From a virus, in the IMG/VR virus record IMGVR_UViG_3300017786_000148, positions 1 to 23,617 of that record: a DNA stretch of 23,617 nt; one strand, 5' to 3'. Positions within the stretch are counted from its first letter, which is position 1; each line of letters starts with the position of its first letter. The translations under genes were made by a program, and so were the position numbers. Of the stretch, positions 632 to 22,792 are shown piece after piece. A model generated the notes under the pieces. It did no database searches. It saw only the letters and a list, made by a program, of their open reading frames with translations, and had not been told where the DNA came from.

Positions 632-1132
632 TTATCCTACCACCAATGTTCCACCAGAATCTACTGTAATTGTTATACCTGTTGCAACTGAAACTGGCCC
701 TGCACATAAAGCGTTTTCTGTTCCAGTAATTGTTACATTTGTATTAAGTTCTTTTTCGTGTACTCTAAAAATGTTTCCTCTACCATCTGTTGTATTTGGA
801 TCACCTTTGAATGCACCTACATCAAAAGACAATGCACTTCTTTGAACTGAGTCTGATGTTGGTACTGAAGAACTCTCATTTATCCCAGCGATAAACAATA
901 CATAGAAGTTCACACCACTTGGTGGTGCAGCCGTCATAGTAAGAGTTGTTCCTGAAACAGAATAAGCATCTGTAGGTTCTTGGCGAACATTACCTACAAA
1001 CACTGCAATGTCAGCAGATGTACCAACACTTCTATTCAATGTGAATGCTACAGTTGACCCATTTGGTGTAAAATCTTGTTTTGTAACAGAAGCACCAAAA
1101 TTATTTGAGCGTTGATTTCCTATAAACGGCAT
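632..1132 (-). CDS. Modular virion protein with one GDGSTVAFTL-type module (166 aa)
   Basis: The N-terminus (MPFIGNQRSNNFGASV) is followed by one beta-rich module: an opening NGSTVAFTLNRS, a central VFVGNVRQEP and a closing YSVSGTTLTMTAAPPSGV. The same opening/centre/closing order recurs in the 200-aa and 269-aa proteins of this cluster. The C-terminal part (about residues 95-166) ends in a glycine/threonine-rich segment (VSVATGITITVDSGGTLVVG), typical of fibre C-terminal beta stretches. It sits directly downstream of a 112-aa protein, and the paralogous 115-aa gene is likewise followed by a module protein, so this pair seems to be duplicated. A ribosome site AAGGTAG precedes the ATG. Likely a tail-fibre or baseplate-periphery protein; exact role unknown. 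Confidence 0.8.
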   Translation of the reverse strand: MPFIGNQRSNNFGASVTKQDFTPNGSTVAFTLNRSVGTSADIAVFVGNVRQEPTDAYSVSGTTLTMTAAPPSGVNFYVLFIAGINESSSVPTSDSVQRSALSFDVGAFKGDPNTTDGRGNIFRVHEKELNTNVTITGTENALCAGPVSVATGITITVDSGGTLVVG

Positions 1133-2122: not shown

Positions 2123-2296
2123 TTAGTCTGCGTCTGCAATGGTTAAAGTGCCTGCTTCTACTTGGCGCATTATTTCTGCGTAGAATCTATTATCTGGGTT
2201 GAGAGGAATTGACCATCTTGTGCCATCTATTATTGCAATGATACCGTCTTTTTTAAACGCTCCATAATCTTTATATTTTGCAGATTCTATATTCAT
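2123..2296 (-). CDS. Adhesin-associated small protein (57 aa)
   Basis: An intact 58-codon frame fills the space between the 403-aa adhesin gene and the 200-aa gene. It starts MNIESAKYKDYGAF, includes IIAIIDGTRWSIPLNPDNR and ends YAEIMRQVEAGTLTIADAD. The AAGGAG ribosome site at 2305-2310 lies 8 nt before the ATG and overlaps the adhesin stop codon, strong support for translation. The C-terminal pattern P-x-N-x-x-Y-x-E-I-x-x-x-V-x-x-G-x-x-I-x-D-A is shared with the 62-aa protein at 13766-13954, which also directly follows an adhesin gene. The pattern resembles the 'NxDYQxYLxWxAxGN' ending I know from many small phage tail-fibre-associated proteins. Role unproven; an adhesin assembly partner or tip protein is plausible. 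Confidence 0.85.
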   Translation of the reverse strand: MNIESAKYKDYGAFKKDGIIAIIDGTRWSIPLNPDNRFYAEIMRQVEAGTLTIADAD

Positions 2297-2297
2297 C

Positions 2298-2317
2298 TTT
2301 ACAACTCCTTACAACTC
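2298..2317 (-). repeat. Tandem 10-bp duplication at adhesin stop codon
   Basis: Two adjacent 10-mers (2298-2307 and 2308-2317) differ at one base. The duplication spans the adhesin stop codon and creates the AAGGAG ribosome site of the 57-aa gene. Confidence 0.85.
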
Positions 2318-3520
2318 AGCATCAAATTGAAGACAAGCAGAACCATCTCCAACGGATCTATTGTTTCTATAAAAGTGTACTGAGTATCCTTGCGTTCCAT
2401 TTGTATTGCCTGTAAAATCTAACCAAGTATTTCTTGTGTCACCCCCTATATTCCAAGCAGAATCAAAAGCAATAGTTCCAGCCAATGATGTATCCCCTTG
2501 TTGAGCAACCCAAGCGCCCGCATTTGTTCCTATGCAACTAACAGCAGGCTGTGCTCTCATTTCTACTGGATATTCCATAACACCTTTTACTCTATTACCA
2601 GAAGCTGTCATAAAAGAACCTCCTAACATCCCATATGCAACATCATCTTTAGTTCTATTATAATATCTCTGACAAGCAAGTAGGTGGTCTGTAGATAAAC
2701 GGTGTTCAAATGGTGTCGCTGCACTGCCAGTTTCAAATTGGATGCCTGTGATTTCCCAATCATTGGCAAGGTTATCTGCAAAGTTTACTTGTCCAGTTGC
2801 ACTACTAGGGTCAGTGCCTGCCCTCCATGCAGTATTTAATGTACCACCTTGCACCGCTGAACCAGCAACTAACCAAAATGAAAACTCTAAAGAACTATTA
2901 ACATCATTATCTAATTTACCAGATGCATCTGCTGGAAAAGTTATAGTGTATCTATTCCAGTTTGCATTTGCAACTGTGTAAGAACCAGAAACATCTCTAC
3001 CATTGTCTCTGTCATATATCTCAACAACATAAACACCAGTTTTATTTGTTTTAACATAAAAAGATAAAGTCATAGGTAAAGCATCAGAACCATGTCCTTT
3101 TGCAAATCTTTGACATTCTCGACCTTCAAGTTTATGTATTATCTTTACTTCTTCATTAGATGCAATAGACGTATCAGCAGTTGTACAGTCCATCTTTAAT
3201 GATTTAGAAAACCCTGCTAAATCTGTTACATTGTTTTGAGAACAAGTATATGTACTTCCAGTATTTTGTTTATATACTGCAAACCTATCTAAAACATATT
3301 GATTACCAACATTGGATGATGAGGTTTTTCTTTGAGATACCATCATTTCGCTATTGACAATAACATTTTTTCCACCACCACCGATACCAGCTGTTTTTGC
3401 TGGTGTGATTGCACCATCAGCAATCTTTGCAGTTGTTACTGCATCATTAGCAATATCTGTCGCAGTAAGAGTTACATCACTATTTAAAAGTTCAGCAAGA
3501 TTTTTTGAATTACTAGCCAT
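2309..3520 (-). CDS. Adhesin / receptor-binding tail protein, copy 2 (403 aa)
   Basis: The N-terminal ~45 residues are a collagen-like string of short repeats (TDIANDAVTTAKIADGAITP) of the sort that anchors or trimerises phage fibres, followed by a glycine hinge (GIGGGG, about 45-50). Then comes the familiar NVIVNSEMMVSQR segment (52-64), a carbohydrate-binding-like beta-sandwich core (MTLSFYVKTNKTGVY, about 150-164) and the conserved WEITGIQFETGSAATPFEH block (about 255-273) followed by CQRYYNRT. It ends CLQFDAEL. The 424-aa protein at 13964-15238 has the same order of parts but little identity in the middle. The start ATG overlaps the upstream stop (TAATG). The recognition surface is probably in the variable middle and C-terminal parts. 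It very likely binds host surface glycans; that is inference from the family. Confidence 0.88.
   Translation of the reverse strand: MASNSKNLAELLNSDVTLTATDIANDAVTTAKIADGAITPAKTAGIGGGGKNVIVNSEMMVSQRKTSSSNVGNQYVLDRFAVYKQNTGSTYTCSQNNVTDLAGFSKSLKMDCTTADTSIASNEEVKIIHKLEGRECQRFAKGHGSDALPMTLSFYVKTNKTGVYVVEIYDRDNGRDVSGSYTVANANWNRYTITFPADASGKLDNDVNSSLEFSFWLVAGSAVQGGTLNTAWRAGTDPSSATGQVNFADNLANDWEITGIQFETGSAATPFEHRLSTDHLLACQRYYNRTKDDVAYGMLGGSFMTASGNRVKGVMEYPVEMRAQPAVSCIGTNAGAWVAQQGDTSLAGTIAFDSAWNIGGDTRNTWLDFTGNTNGTQGYSVHFYRNNRSVGDGSACLQFDAEL
3417..3454 (-). repeat. 38-bp direct repeat, adhesin copy 2
   Basis: Partner of 15111-15148, with one mismatch (c/t at the 23rd base on the plus strand). It encodes IANDAVTTAKIAD near the start of the 403-aa adhesin; the mismatch accounts for the Val/Ile difference. 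Confidence 0.92.
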
Positions 3521-4329
3521 TAGATTTGATACCTCGCCATAATTTCTGAAAGAGCAACTGGAGCAAATGTTAGTGTAAGTGTCACACCACTAATTGAATA
3601 GTCACTAGTTGGTTTAAGAGCAATACCGTTATAGAAAATAAATGCACTATTGGTTGTTGCACCAGCAGTACCTAAAGTAAATGCCACTGTAGAACCATCA
3701 CCAGTGAATGTGTCGTACTGAAAGTCTGTACTTCTACGAGCAATTGATCTGATTGTTAAATGTTTTGTTTCAATCTCTGCAGCGGCTGCTGGTGCTGTTG
3801 TGAATGTTAATGTTGTACCAGAGAGACTATAGTTTGTTGTTGCCTTCTGAAGAATACCATCAACGAAAACCATAATACCAGCTACGTTTGCTGGTTCTTC
3901 CGAAAGAGTAAATGCAACCGTAGAACCATCACCAGTAGCAACATCTGTTGTAAAACTTTTTAAGTTTGCAGCAAGTTCGTTTACACCAACAGAACCAGCT
4001 GGTGGTTTCATGTTGATTGTTCCAACACCTCTGTGTATCATGTAAATCGAACCACTAGATGGTATTGCACCAGCGAATTTTAAAATCTTTGGATTACCAT
4101 CTGCATCATTGTGAATTGTATATGCAACATCTGGTTCTTGTACCACGTTATCTAGAACTACATGTATGTTTTCTGTATTTCCACCAGGCACTTCTATTGA
4201 TAATGCTACTGCATTAGTATGAGCAACACCACTAACTGTAATGGTACTCAAGTTAGAACCTAGAAAATCTTCTTTTAGGAACGCTGGGGATACTTTATTT
4301 AAGTGTGGTACACCAATATAGTTAGACAT
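3520..4329 (-). CDS. Modular virion protein with three GDGSTVAFTL-type modules (269 aa)
   Basis: Starts MSNYIGVPHLNKV, then carries three modules. The first, about residues 20-105, is diverged (VVLDNVVQEPDVAYTIHND, GNPKILKFAGAIP). The second, about 130-195, is canonical (GDGSTVAFTLSEEP, VFVDGILQ, YSLSGTTLTFTTAP). The third, about 205-269, is also canonical (GDGSTVAFTLGTAG, FYNGIALKP, YSISGVTLTLTFAP). The diverged first module resembles the first module of the 200-aa protein, so the 200-aa protein looks like a shorter relative of this one. The ATG has AAGGGGTAAAAT upstream. It lies between a 115-aa virion protein and the adhesin, consistent with a connector that joins adhesin to baseplate or fibre; this is inference. 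No catalytic motif. Confidence 0.82.
   Translation of the reverse strand: MSNYIGVPHLNKVSPAFLKEDFLGSNLSTITVSGVAHTNAVALSIEVPGGNTENIHVVLDNVVQEPDVAYTIHNDADGNPKILKFAGAIPSSGSIYMIHRGVGTINMKPPAGSVGVNELAANLKSFTTDVATGDGSTVAFTLSEEPANVAGIMVFVDGILQKATTNYSLSGTTLTFTTAPAAAAEIETKHLTIRSIARRSTDFQYDTFTGDGSTVAFTLGTAGATTNSAFIFYNGIALKPTSDYSISGVTLTLTFAPVALSEIMARYQI
3676..3703 (-). repeat. 28-bp module repeat, copy in module 3 of 269-aa gene
   Basis: Near-identical to 3907-3934 and 1768-1795 (two mismatches each). It encodes GDGSTVAFTL in the last module of the 269-aa protein. Confidence 0.9.
3907..3934 (-). repeat. 28-bp module repeat, copy in module 2 of 269-aa gene
   Basis: Near-identical to 3676-3703 (231 nt away) and 1768-1795. 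It encodes GDGSTVAFTL in the middle module of the 269-aa protein. Confidence 0.9.
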
Positions 4330-13765: not shown

Positions 13766-13954
13766 TCAGAAGGGTGCATCTGAAATTGTATTACCATCTG
13801 CTACCCATTTTAAAATCTCTTGATAGTCTATATTACCTTCTGCTACTGGCACAGATGTTGTGATACCAGTGATTTCATTACCATCTGCATCATTGTATAC
13901 AACCATTAGATTACTATCATCATTCGGTATTTTTGTTACTGTTTTAATTTGCAT
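13766..13954 (-). CDS. Adhesin-associated small protein (62 aa)
   Basis: It starts MQIKTVTKIPNDDSNLMVVY, followed by a short beta-rich section (GNEITGITTSVPVAEGNI), and ends YQEILKWVADGNTISDAPF. The ending fits the 'DYQEYLxWVAxGNT' pattern I know from small phage tail-fibre-associated proteins (XkdW-like and relatives). It also matches the end of the 57-aa protein at 2123-2296, which likewise follows an adhesin gene. The ribosome site CATAGGAATAAATT (overlapping the adhesin's last codons) lies just before the ATG, and the gap to the adhesin is only 9 nt. Candidate roles are an assembly partner for the adhesin or a small tip protein; neither is shown by sequence alone. Confidence 0.85.
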   Translation of the reverse strand: MQIKTVTKIPNDDSNLMVVYNDADGNEITGITTSVPVAEGNIDYQEILKWVADGNTISDAPF

Positions 13955-13963
13955 AATTTATTC

Positions 13964-15238
13964 CTATATGTCTGCACTAAAATGAAATTGTAATGATGCT
14001 CCAATAATAAATTGATCGTGTCGAACAGTACTAGGTGATATGTAATATGTTCCTACCATACAACCAGAATTAGAATGAGCGTGTCTAGCCAATGTGTTGA
14101 GATTTCCGTTCCCAGCCTGATCTGTATAACCTTGGTTCTGATAATAAAATTCAACTTGACTACCGCTTGGAGCACTACCTCCTGAGAAATTAGAATTACT
14201 AATGTTATGTGTCAATGTGGGAATTGTTCTCATTGTTACTGGAAAGGGTACATGAAAAGCAAAATGTCCTACGTTAGTGCCTGCAACAACTGTACCAAAA
14301 TTTACATTTGCAGTAAGATTGGTTTGAGCTGCCTGTCCATTGCCTCCAGACATAGGATTGTAAAAGTACCGTTGACAAATCGCAAGGTCTTCAGATGATG
14401 TAAGATGCTCGAATGGTGTGGCCGTGTCGCCAACTTCCAATTGAACGCCTGTAATTTCAAATGTAGCTCCAGCGGTATTAGACCAATCCTGAGCAAAGTT
14501 TGGAAAATATCCAGCAGTTTGTGTTCTATTATACCAAGCCTCTGTAACTGCCTGTGAGTGTCCAGTGTAAGTAGTTCCATAATCAGGACAAATAACAACT
14601 GTAAACCCATGATCGGTATTATCATCAATTTGAAGATTTGAGTTGCCAGGAACTGTACATGTTACTTTTGTCCAAGTGTTAGCTGCAAGTGTAAAAGCTT
14701 TGTTGTAATAATAAGATGTTCCATCTATAGTTCTAAACTGACTATAATAAGTTCCAGCTAAAGAACTTTTAACCCAATAACTAAGAGTTAACTTTGAATT
14801 TGGATCTGTGTAATTCCAACCAGATCTAGCAATATTTTGTGCTTCGATATGTTGTTCCAACTGTGAAAAAGTTCCAGCAGCGTTACTTGCAGAAGTAACA
14901 GTTGCATGATAAGACTTACGAAACCCAAGAGTATATGGAGTGTCACTAGAACTTAAAGTATGTTGAGACTGTGTAAGAGTACCACCACCGCCATAGTTTA
15001 ATTTCCATCTATCAACGGTTTGATACAATCCTGTTGTACTACTAGTGCCTCTTTGAGCAATATTAAAAGCACCATTAATAATAATATTTCTGCGTCCAAG
15101 ATTTACTGTGTCAGCAATCTTTGCAGTTGTTATTGCATCATTAGCAATCTGTGCTGTAGTGATAGTACCAGCTGCAATATCAGCAGCTGATACCGCTAAA
15201 TCAGCAATTGCATTAGAACCTAATCTATCTAGAGCCAT
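13964..15238 (-). CDS. Adhesin / receptor-binding tail protein, copy 1 (424 aa)
   Basis: The N-terminus (1-48) is a short-period repeat string: SAADIAAGTITTAQ, IANDAITTAKIADTVN. Then follow NIIINGAFNIAQRGTSSTTG (51-70), TVDRWKL (74-80), a beta-sandwich core with LTLSYWVKSSLAGTY (150-164) and the EITGVQLEVGDTATPFEH block (261-278) followed by CQRYFYNP. It ends ASLQFHFSADI. I recognise this layout from host-specificity proteins of marine phages; the core resembles carbohydrate-binding modules. The 403-aa paralogue shares the framework but differs in the recognition parts. It is paired with the 62-aa protein downstream and the 257-aa fibre protein upstream. The ribosome site AAGGAAGG precedes the ATG. 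Glycan binding is inferred. Confidence 0.88.
   Translation of the reverse strand: MALDRLGSNAIADLAVSAADIAAGTITTAQIANDAITTAKIADTVNLGRRNIIINGAFNIAQRGTSSTTGLYQTVDRWKLNYGGGGTLTQSQHTLSSSDTPYTLGFRKSYHATVTSASNAAGTFSQLEQHIEAQNIARSGWNYTDPNSKLTLSYWVKSSLAGTYYSQFRTIDGTSYYYNKAFTLAANTWTKVTCTVPGNSNLQIDDNTDHGFTVVICPDYGTTYTGHSQAVTEAWYNRTQTAGYFPNFAQDWSNTAGATFEITGVQLEVGDTATPFEHLTSSEDLAICQRYFYNPMSGGNGQAAQTNLTANVNFGTVVAGTNVGHFAFHVPFPVTMRTIPTLTHNISNSNFSGGSAPSGSQVEFYYQNQGYTDQAGNGNLNTLARHAHSNSGCMVGTYYISPSTVRHDQFIIGASLQFHFSADI
15111..15148 (-). repeat. 38-bp direct repeat, adhesin copy 1
   Basis: Matches 3417-3454 at 37 of 38 positions, in the same orientation. It encodes the repeated N-terminal segment IANDAITTAKIAD of the 424-aa adhesin. 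Confidence 0.92.
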
Positions 15239-22092: not shown

Positions 22093-22494
22093 TTACAAAA
22101 CGACTAGAGCTCTATTCTTTATATGTTCTTCTTCTATGTCATCTTTCGACTGTCCATAATATGCAACAGCATGATGTTCTGATATCATCTTATCATTAAG
22201 AATACTTCCATCAGTCAATTTAAATTGACCAAGTATCCTACCATATTTACCCTTCCCATCCTTGACAGTCACAAGAGTCTGGTTAGAACCTACAGGCATA
22301 TGTGCCTTAACATATTCCTTTGCAGCTGTTCCATACTTCTTTTCTTCCAAGTCTCTCGTTCTAGATTCTGGTGTATCAATACCATAAAAACGTATACGTT
22401 GTTTTCTCAACCATACACCAAACCCCAAGTCAATGTCAACGTCTGTTGTGTCACCATCAACCACTCTTAATATCTTACAATTATATTCGTACAT
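22093..22494 (-). CDS. Staphylococcal-nuclease-like protein (133 aa)
   Basis: SNase/thermonuclease fold with the key residues in order: D15 in VVDGDT, R35 in RIRFYGIDTPES, D40, T41 and E43 in the same segment, and R86 in KGKYGRILGQ. These correspond to D21, R35, D40, T41, E43 and R87 of staphylococcal nuclease, a calcium-dependent enzyme that cuts DNA and RNA. I chose the ATG at 22494 because GGAGG lies 5 nt before it and it begins 1 nt after the PAAR stop; a longer frame would overlap the PAAR gene. There is no signal peptide or membrane segment, so it acts in the cell or from the virion. Position between the spike tip and gp25 is unexpected for a nuclease. Role (host DNA breakdown, defence against other phages, or delivered enzyme) is not decided by sequence. 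Confidence 0.92.
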   Translation of the reverse strand: MYEYNCKILRVVDGDTTDVDIDLGFGVWLRKQRIRFYGIDTPESRTRDLEEKKYGTAAKEYVKAHMPVGSNQTLVTVKDGKGKYGRILGQFKLTDGSILNDKMISEHHAVAYYGQSKDDIEEEHIKNRALVVL

Positions 22495-22495
22495 C

Positions 22496-22792
22496 TTATC
22501 CTCCAGCGAATACGTTAGACGAACCAGAGTTGGATGCATTAGGCACCCATGAACCGTGTCCACCTGTTGCGTCACCTTTTCGATGAACGCCTATACCATT
22601 TACAAATACGGTTGAACTTCCAGCTGTTGCTGGATCTCCGCATGATGTTGTGTCTCCAATCCTAACAGTCGCTGCACCATTTGTAAATACATTTGGTGAA
22701 CCAGCTGCGTATGCGGTTTGGTGAAACGGATTAGGTGTAGGACTTGCGTGACCTACATGACTATCTAATCCAACTCTTGTTACTTCAGGCAT
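22496..22792 (-). CDS. PAAR-domain spike-tip protein (gp5.4-like)
   Basis: The 98-aa protein has the PAAR repeat layout: SHVGHASPTPNPFHQTAYAA (11-30), AGSPNVFTNGAATVRIGDTT (30-49), SCGDPATAGSSTVFVNG and IGVHRKGDATGGHG. Histidines and one cysteine (H12, H15, C51, H75) are suited to bind the metal at the tip, as in known PAAR proteins. T4 gp5.4 (about 97 aa) caps the gp5 spike and pierces the outer membrane. Here it follows the hub/lysin gene by 8 nt, the expected order. Ribosome site AGGAATAATT lies before the ATG. The C-terminal SGSSNVFAGG repeats the SPNVFTNG turn. Confidence 0.95.
   Translation of the reverse strand: MPEVTRVGLDSHVGHASPTPNPFHQTAYAAGSPNVFTNGAATVRIGDTTSCGDPATAGSSTVFVNGIGVHRKGDATGGHGSWVPNASNSGSSNVFAGG

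Follow-up and report, generated by a model that had tools for sequence, protein, structure and literature searches.

The two small proteins encoded directly behind the adhesin genes of a marine phage are each probably the stand-alone fiber-binding module of a Tfa-like intermolecular tail-fiber chaperone, a "mini-Tfa". The window analyzed here is the 23,617-nt (23.6-kb) virus record IMGVR_UViG_3300017786_000148 in its entirety. It carries a minus-strand baseplate and fiber cluster of a T4-like marine phage, with homologues of gp6, gp25, gp8, and PAAR. The closest named DNA is that of Methylophilales phage Melnitz, at 75% identity only over 0.67 kb. The two small genes are real, and their lengths (57 and 62 aa), coordinates, and distances from the adhesins ahead of them (12 and 9 nt) are as an earlier, sequence-only reading had given them (Table 1). 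The two adhesins are themselves homologous (27% identity, E 3e-30). Identical copies of the 62-aa protein occur in the viral contigs L180 (4001-4186) and L181 (575-760), so close relatives of the window phage are present in the collection.

Table 1. Adhesin-partner pairs in the window and their landmarks.
Feature	Position	Strand	Support
Adhesin 1, 403 aa	2309..3520	-	C-terminus QFDAEL; phrog_4492 "tail fiber protein", E 6.7e-45
Adhesin 1 domains: CBM4/22-like beta-sandwich (about residues 50-265), then variable distal domain			AF2 model, residues 50-265, against CBM4-2: VIA-align Z 12.8, rmsd 2.8 over 158 residues
Codons of the conserved adhesin 1 C-terminus D-A-E-L	2312..2323	-	AEL/SEL ends in 211 of 228 distinct pairs
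Shine-Dalgarno-like GGAG, 8 nt 5' of the 57-aa start codon	2305..2308	-	TAA-GGAGTTGTAAAG-ATG
Small partner 1, 57 aa, group A	2123..2296	-	Similarity to Melnitz gp178 and HMO-2011 gp27; AF2 pLDDT 90.8
Adhesin 2, 424 aa, same family as adhesin 1	13964..15238	-	C-terminus FSADI; phrog_4492, E 5.9e-50
Shine-Dalgarno-like AGGA, overlapping the adhesin 2 stop codon	13962..13965	-	ATATAG-GAATAAATT-ATG
Small partner 2, 62 aa, group B	13766..13954	-	Profile match to the family; 41% identical to HTVC100P gp37

Two further features of the cluster were observed. Neighboring genes at window positions 632-1132, 1498-2100, and 3520-4329 (minus strand) have a common repeated fiber-type domain (phrog_18673) and lack a member of the small-partner family behind them. 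A staphylococcal-nuclease homologue (PF00565, E 5.9e-12) lies at 22093-22575 (minus strand) between the gp25 and PAAR baseplate genes, an unexpected location for such a protein.

Judged by their homology, the small genes belong to one widespread, uncharacterized family. The C-terminal halves of the two window proteins align by BLASTP (14 of 34 residues identical; E 8e-5 for a single comparison), and hhalign joins the profiles of their respective relatives at E 1.4e-19. The shared C-terminal ending that had been proposed from sequence is therefore one of homology, although not literally a motif of fixed spacing, since the two endings align only with a gap of one residue (G-TLTIADA versus G-N-TISDA). 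Hidden Markov models of group A and group B match the same 260 open reading frames (ORFs); the two groups therefore constitute a single family. Over its full length, the 57-aa protein shows 56% identity with Melnitz gp178 and 52% with HMO-2011 gp27, both of which lie directly behind a homologous adhesin. Their records are labeled "tail assembly chaperone" and "hypothetical", respectively, and we found no functional work on either protein in the literature.

Relatives in other phages had been expected to be functionally undescribed, and the databases bear this out. Neither Pfam nor NCBIfam offers a meaningful model for the two window proteins or for 89 family members, and none of these proteins matches the Tfa-like models PF02413, PF16778, and PF14301. 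Matches to curated chaperone domains are confined to longer relatives, through their C-terminal half. Among the 89 members, the matching PHROG profiles are phrog_20370 (45 members), phrog_34019 (8), and phrog_5784 (8), all annotated without a function. None of the three picks up the 57-aa protein. The AF2 model of this protein (pLDDT 90.8, pTM 0.75) comprises three strands with a single helix and a short tail. The best rows listed in a structure comparison against the PDB were chemokines and unrelated proteins (Z of at most 5.5); families outside these rows, among them a fold like that of Mu Tfa (5YVQ) or Pam3 gp25 (7YPX), may match as well. We take the chemokine-like rows as a coincidence of simple topology. 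Searched by sequence against solved structures, the module gave no notable match.

The small gene and the adhesin form a fixed pair. One scan used small proteins of group A alone, a second used group B, and a tally covered all viral loci. Immediately 3' of a match to the adhesin model, the viral contigs carry 215 distinct members of the family. Only seven apparent exceptions were found, and each can be explained. Three are tandem second copies directly behind a first member (L035:2649-2837, L120:3958-4140, and L125:1427-1522). Another three lie at contig edges (L059, L064, and L065), two of which still show an upstream frame ending in AEL or AEF. The last (L027) is an ORF-start artefact whose adhesin is visible on inspection. 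Equal abundance of such small ORFs away from adhesins would have spoken against pairing; the tally of 215 members against seven explained exceptions favors it. Chance is ruled out because the pairing is conserved in hundreds of contigs. We found it in Kyanoviridae, Autographiviridae, Peduoviridae, other phages, and cellular genomes. The family thereby shows a hallmark of Tfa-like proteins, that of being encoded immediately 3' of the fiber served.

The pairing also holds when approached from the adhesin. Two alignments of adhesins (A2 and A4) proved too divergent to scan the collection with, and the closer alignment set A5 worked. In this favorable sample, restricted to the closest 80 loci and seeded with adhesins that all had partners, a family member follows 76 of the 80 adhesins by HMM and, with L145 added by eye, 77. 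The remaining three adhesins are followed by a variant ORF of 59-66 aa (L112:1180-1359, L146, and L175). These variants (MSYS...FQEWLRNN...AKIDADELTIQEAE) resemble the family at their end and differ from it elsewhere.

The adhesin family has a fixed A/S-E-L C-terminus behind a hypervariable tip. The distal beta domain that follows the CBM4/22-like part is very variable among relatives (median distance 0.79). Nevertheless, the last three residues in 228 distinct pairs are AEL in 176, SEL in 35, and AEI in 6; adhesin 2 of the window ends in ADI. We rejected the idea that A/S-E-L is restricted to adhesins with an adjoining partner. Among named phages picked by adhesin similarity, Synechococcus phage S-N03, Vibrio phage D254, S-CRM01, and a Nitratidesulfovibrio phage have A/S-E-L-type adhesins with no adjoining partner, and the genomes of D254 and S-CRM01 contain no family member anywhere.

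The module is also found fused to known chaperone domains. At the N-terminus of L245 it precedes PF16778 (Phage_tail_APC, E 4.5e-13), and in L273 and L277 it precedes DUF4376 (E 1.5e-20 and 1.6e-19, respectively). A protein of Stenotrophomonas phage Silvanus also has DUF4376, and its N-terminus is linked to the module through L277 and L278; the group B profile does not match it, while a long-form profile does (E 8e-4). With other C-terminal extensions, the module occurs in S-2L, B23, Alfacinha1, and FoX4, where the longer proteins likewise sit behind fibers. Fusions to recognized chaperone domains are few (n = 4), and all four fetched loci with module-bearing PF16778 or DUF4376 chaperones have A/S-E-L-type fibers (one ending in SAEF), compared with 1 of 59 loci in which such chaperones have other N-termini (Fisher 8e-6). 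It is therefore the N-terminal module, and not the C-terminal half, that tracks the fiber type. Together with the linkage to the adhesin, these fusions argue for the role of assembly partner, one of several that had been suggested for the small proteins.

Structurally characterized chaperones provide the closest comparison. The chaperone gp25 of Pam3 (PDB 7YPX) grips the distal end of its fiber with an N-terminal beta domain (residues 1-55), while its C-terminal helical half trimerizes (PMC9608196). Pam3 gp25 resembles the small proteins in being encoded directly 3' of its fiber and in the make-up of its N-terminal domain, roughly 55 residues that contain beta strands and a short helix. It differs from them in its length (162 aa) and in its C-terminal helical trimerization half, which is absent from the 57- and 62-aa proteins, as judged by their size and by the AF2 model of the former. 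The Pam3 fiber also differs from the window adhesins, being of a TNF-like and glycine-rich type.

Larger chaperones with DUF4376 (PF14301) offer a second comparison. V22 gp27, which has a C-terminal DUF4376 domain, has been shown experimentally to be a fiber chaperone needed for a functional fiber (PMC7289586). V22 gp27 and A5 gp9 are encoded directly 3' of a marine phage fiber, as the small proteins are, but are larger (195-239 aa). Their DUF4376 is the domain that forms the C-terminal half of the module-bearing L273 and L277 and that is absent from the window proteins. Furthermore, the V22 fiber ends in ITVNF rather than AEL, and V22 gp27 has a different N-terminus from the module. No sequence similarity of the module to Pam3 gp25 or to the V22 gp27 N-terminus was detected, which counts against the chaperone-module reading, as do the A/S-E-L-type adhesins with no adjoining partner and the small number of fusions. 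Phage_tail_APC proteins likewise lie directly 3' of fiber genes in many fetched loci; their domain, fused to the module in L245, is absent from the window proteins, and their usual members have other N-termini and fibers that end otherwise.

A mechanism can be proposed from these relatives. The small protein would bind the conserved distal end or the C-terminal strand of the nascent adhesin and would guard that end until the trimer has folded. It may then leave, or stay as a loose cap. Because the helical trimerization half is missing, each small protein would work on the fiber trimer as an individual monomer. Modeled as one read-through chain, adhesin and partner scored pLDDT 79 and pTM 0.71, values for the chain as a whole and not for an interface.

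In the main rival reading, the small protein stays in the virion for good, as a cap or a minor structural subunit of the fiber tip. Mu Tfa behaves in this way, remaining attached to the tip, and a role as cap is possible for chaperones (PMC10579305). A conserved adhesin C-terminus beside a conserved partner would fit a lasting interface, and the small, compact, and (by AF2) confidently folded form of the protein also favors this rival. However, Pam3 gp25, the chaperone of the solved complex, is absent from virions (PMC9608196), and V22 gp27 is reported to lie outside the final complex (PMC7289586). We found no virion proteomics in the literature for a member of the small-protein family. On balance, we regard a permanent cap as unlikely, and a chaperone module as the better explanation.

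The small gene is usually translationally coupled to the adhesin, and would then be translated in step with the fiber. Where the gap is at most 4 nt, adhesin codon -3, which encodes the A or S of the ending, is GCG or TCG in 167 of 200 pairs, with GAG next in most of them; in 160 of 200, GGAG occurs within the last nine adhesin coding bases. At longer gaps, GCG or TCG is found at this codon in only 1 of 22 pairs (Fisher p 7e-14). At short gaps, the end of the adhesin gene thus also provides the partner's ribosome-binding site. Both window pairs are of the long-gap class, each with its own GGAG or AGGA. At the protein level, we rejected the idea that A/S-E-L is a mere by-product of Shine-Dalgarno overlap, because it persists with non-Shine-Dalgarno codons at long gaps and in adhesins with no neighboring partner, and because the equally serviceable ACG (Thr) and CCG (Pro) never occur at that position. 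Thus, the protein sequence is under selection too.

In phages it is common for genes to lie a short gap apart and for Shine-Dalgarno sequences to be shared. Since both occur in the pairs described here, the linkage might reflect operon structure only, with a small protein of unrelated function traveling with the fiber gene. We consider this quite improbable: the pairing persists from Kyanoviridae, Autographiviridae, and Peduoviridae to other phages and cellular genomes, the module is fused to known chaperone domains, and it tracks the C-terminal type of the fiber rather than gene position.

Small partners are more conserved than the adhesins that precede them. In group A, the median distance is 0.37 for the partner, 0.59 for the CBM part of the adhesin, and 0.79 for the tip, which is near saturation. 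Partner and tip distances correlate only marginally there (Mantel r 0.08, p 0.04). The correlation is higher in group B (r 0.25), but the CBM part and the tip correlate in that group too. The sequence-only reading had each small protein matched to its own adhesin; with a correlation that is weak to absent, this was not upheld, and a generic partner would fit these distances better than tailor-made pairs. Adhesin residue -4 differs by group, being D in 98 of 106 group A sequences and mixed in group B, and ranks 4th of 343 columns; shared descent may account for this difference, because other high-ranking columns lie elsewhere.

A second role suggested earlier, that of a receptor-binding tip or decoy ligand, fits poorly with so conserved a protein. 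The gp38 of T2-like phages is encoded directly 3' of the fiber, and gp38-type tip adhesins have hypervariable glycine-rich receptor-binding loops. A gp38-like tip or decoy matched to its own adhesin would agree with this gene position and with the modest variation of the N-terminal loops, yet it is very improbable for proteins that are far less variable than the adhesin tips, show almost no matching to them, and have neither glycine-rich repeats nor glycine-rich hypervariable loops.

Chaperones with PF16778 and other N-termini, for example at L001:7026-7334, L089:1452-1772, L012:2895-3281, L032:3582-3965, and many other loci, are found with a different fiber type. Their fibers often end in (M)EIAG or EVAG (MEIAG-like). 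Tentatively, fibers and chaperone heads may obey a modular code: a fiber's terminal residues, or its distal fold, would set which head follows, the three-strand and helix module for A/S-E-L fibers, and APC chaperones with other N-termini for MEIAG-type fibers. It is possible that, in marine phages, the head alone, with no trimerization domain, suffices for a widely exchanged family of hypervariable adhesins.

Adhesins set which bacteria a phage infects, and in the dominant marine phages they have hardly been studied. Should the small genes encode the missing folding partners, co-expression would make this class of adhesins testable. A small ORF behind an A/S-E-L fiber would also be a simple rule pointing to true host-binding fibers in metagenomes. 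Finally, the single-module form raises the question of how much of a fiber chaperone is needed.
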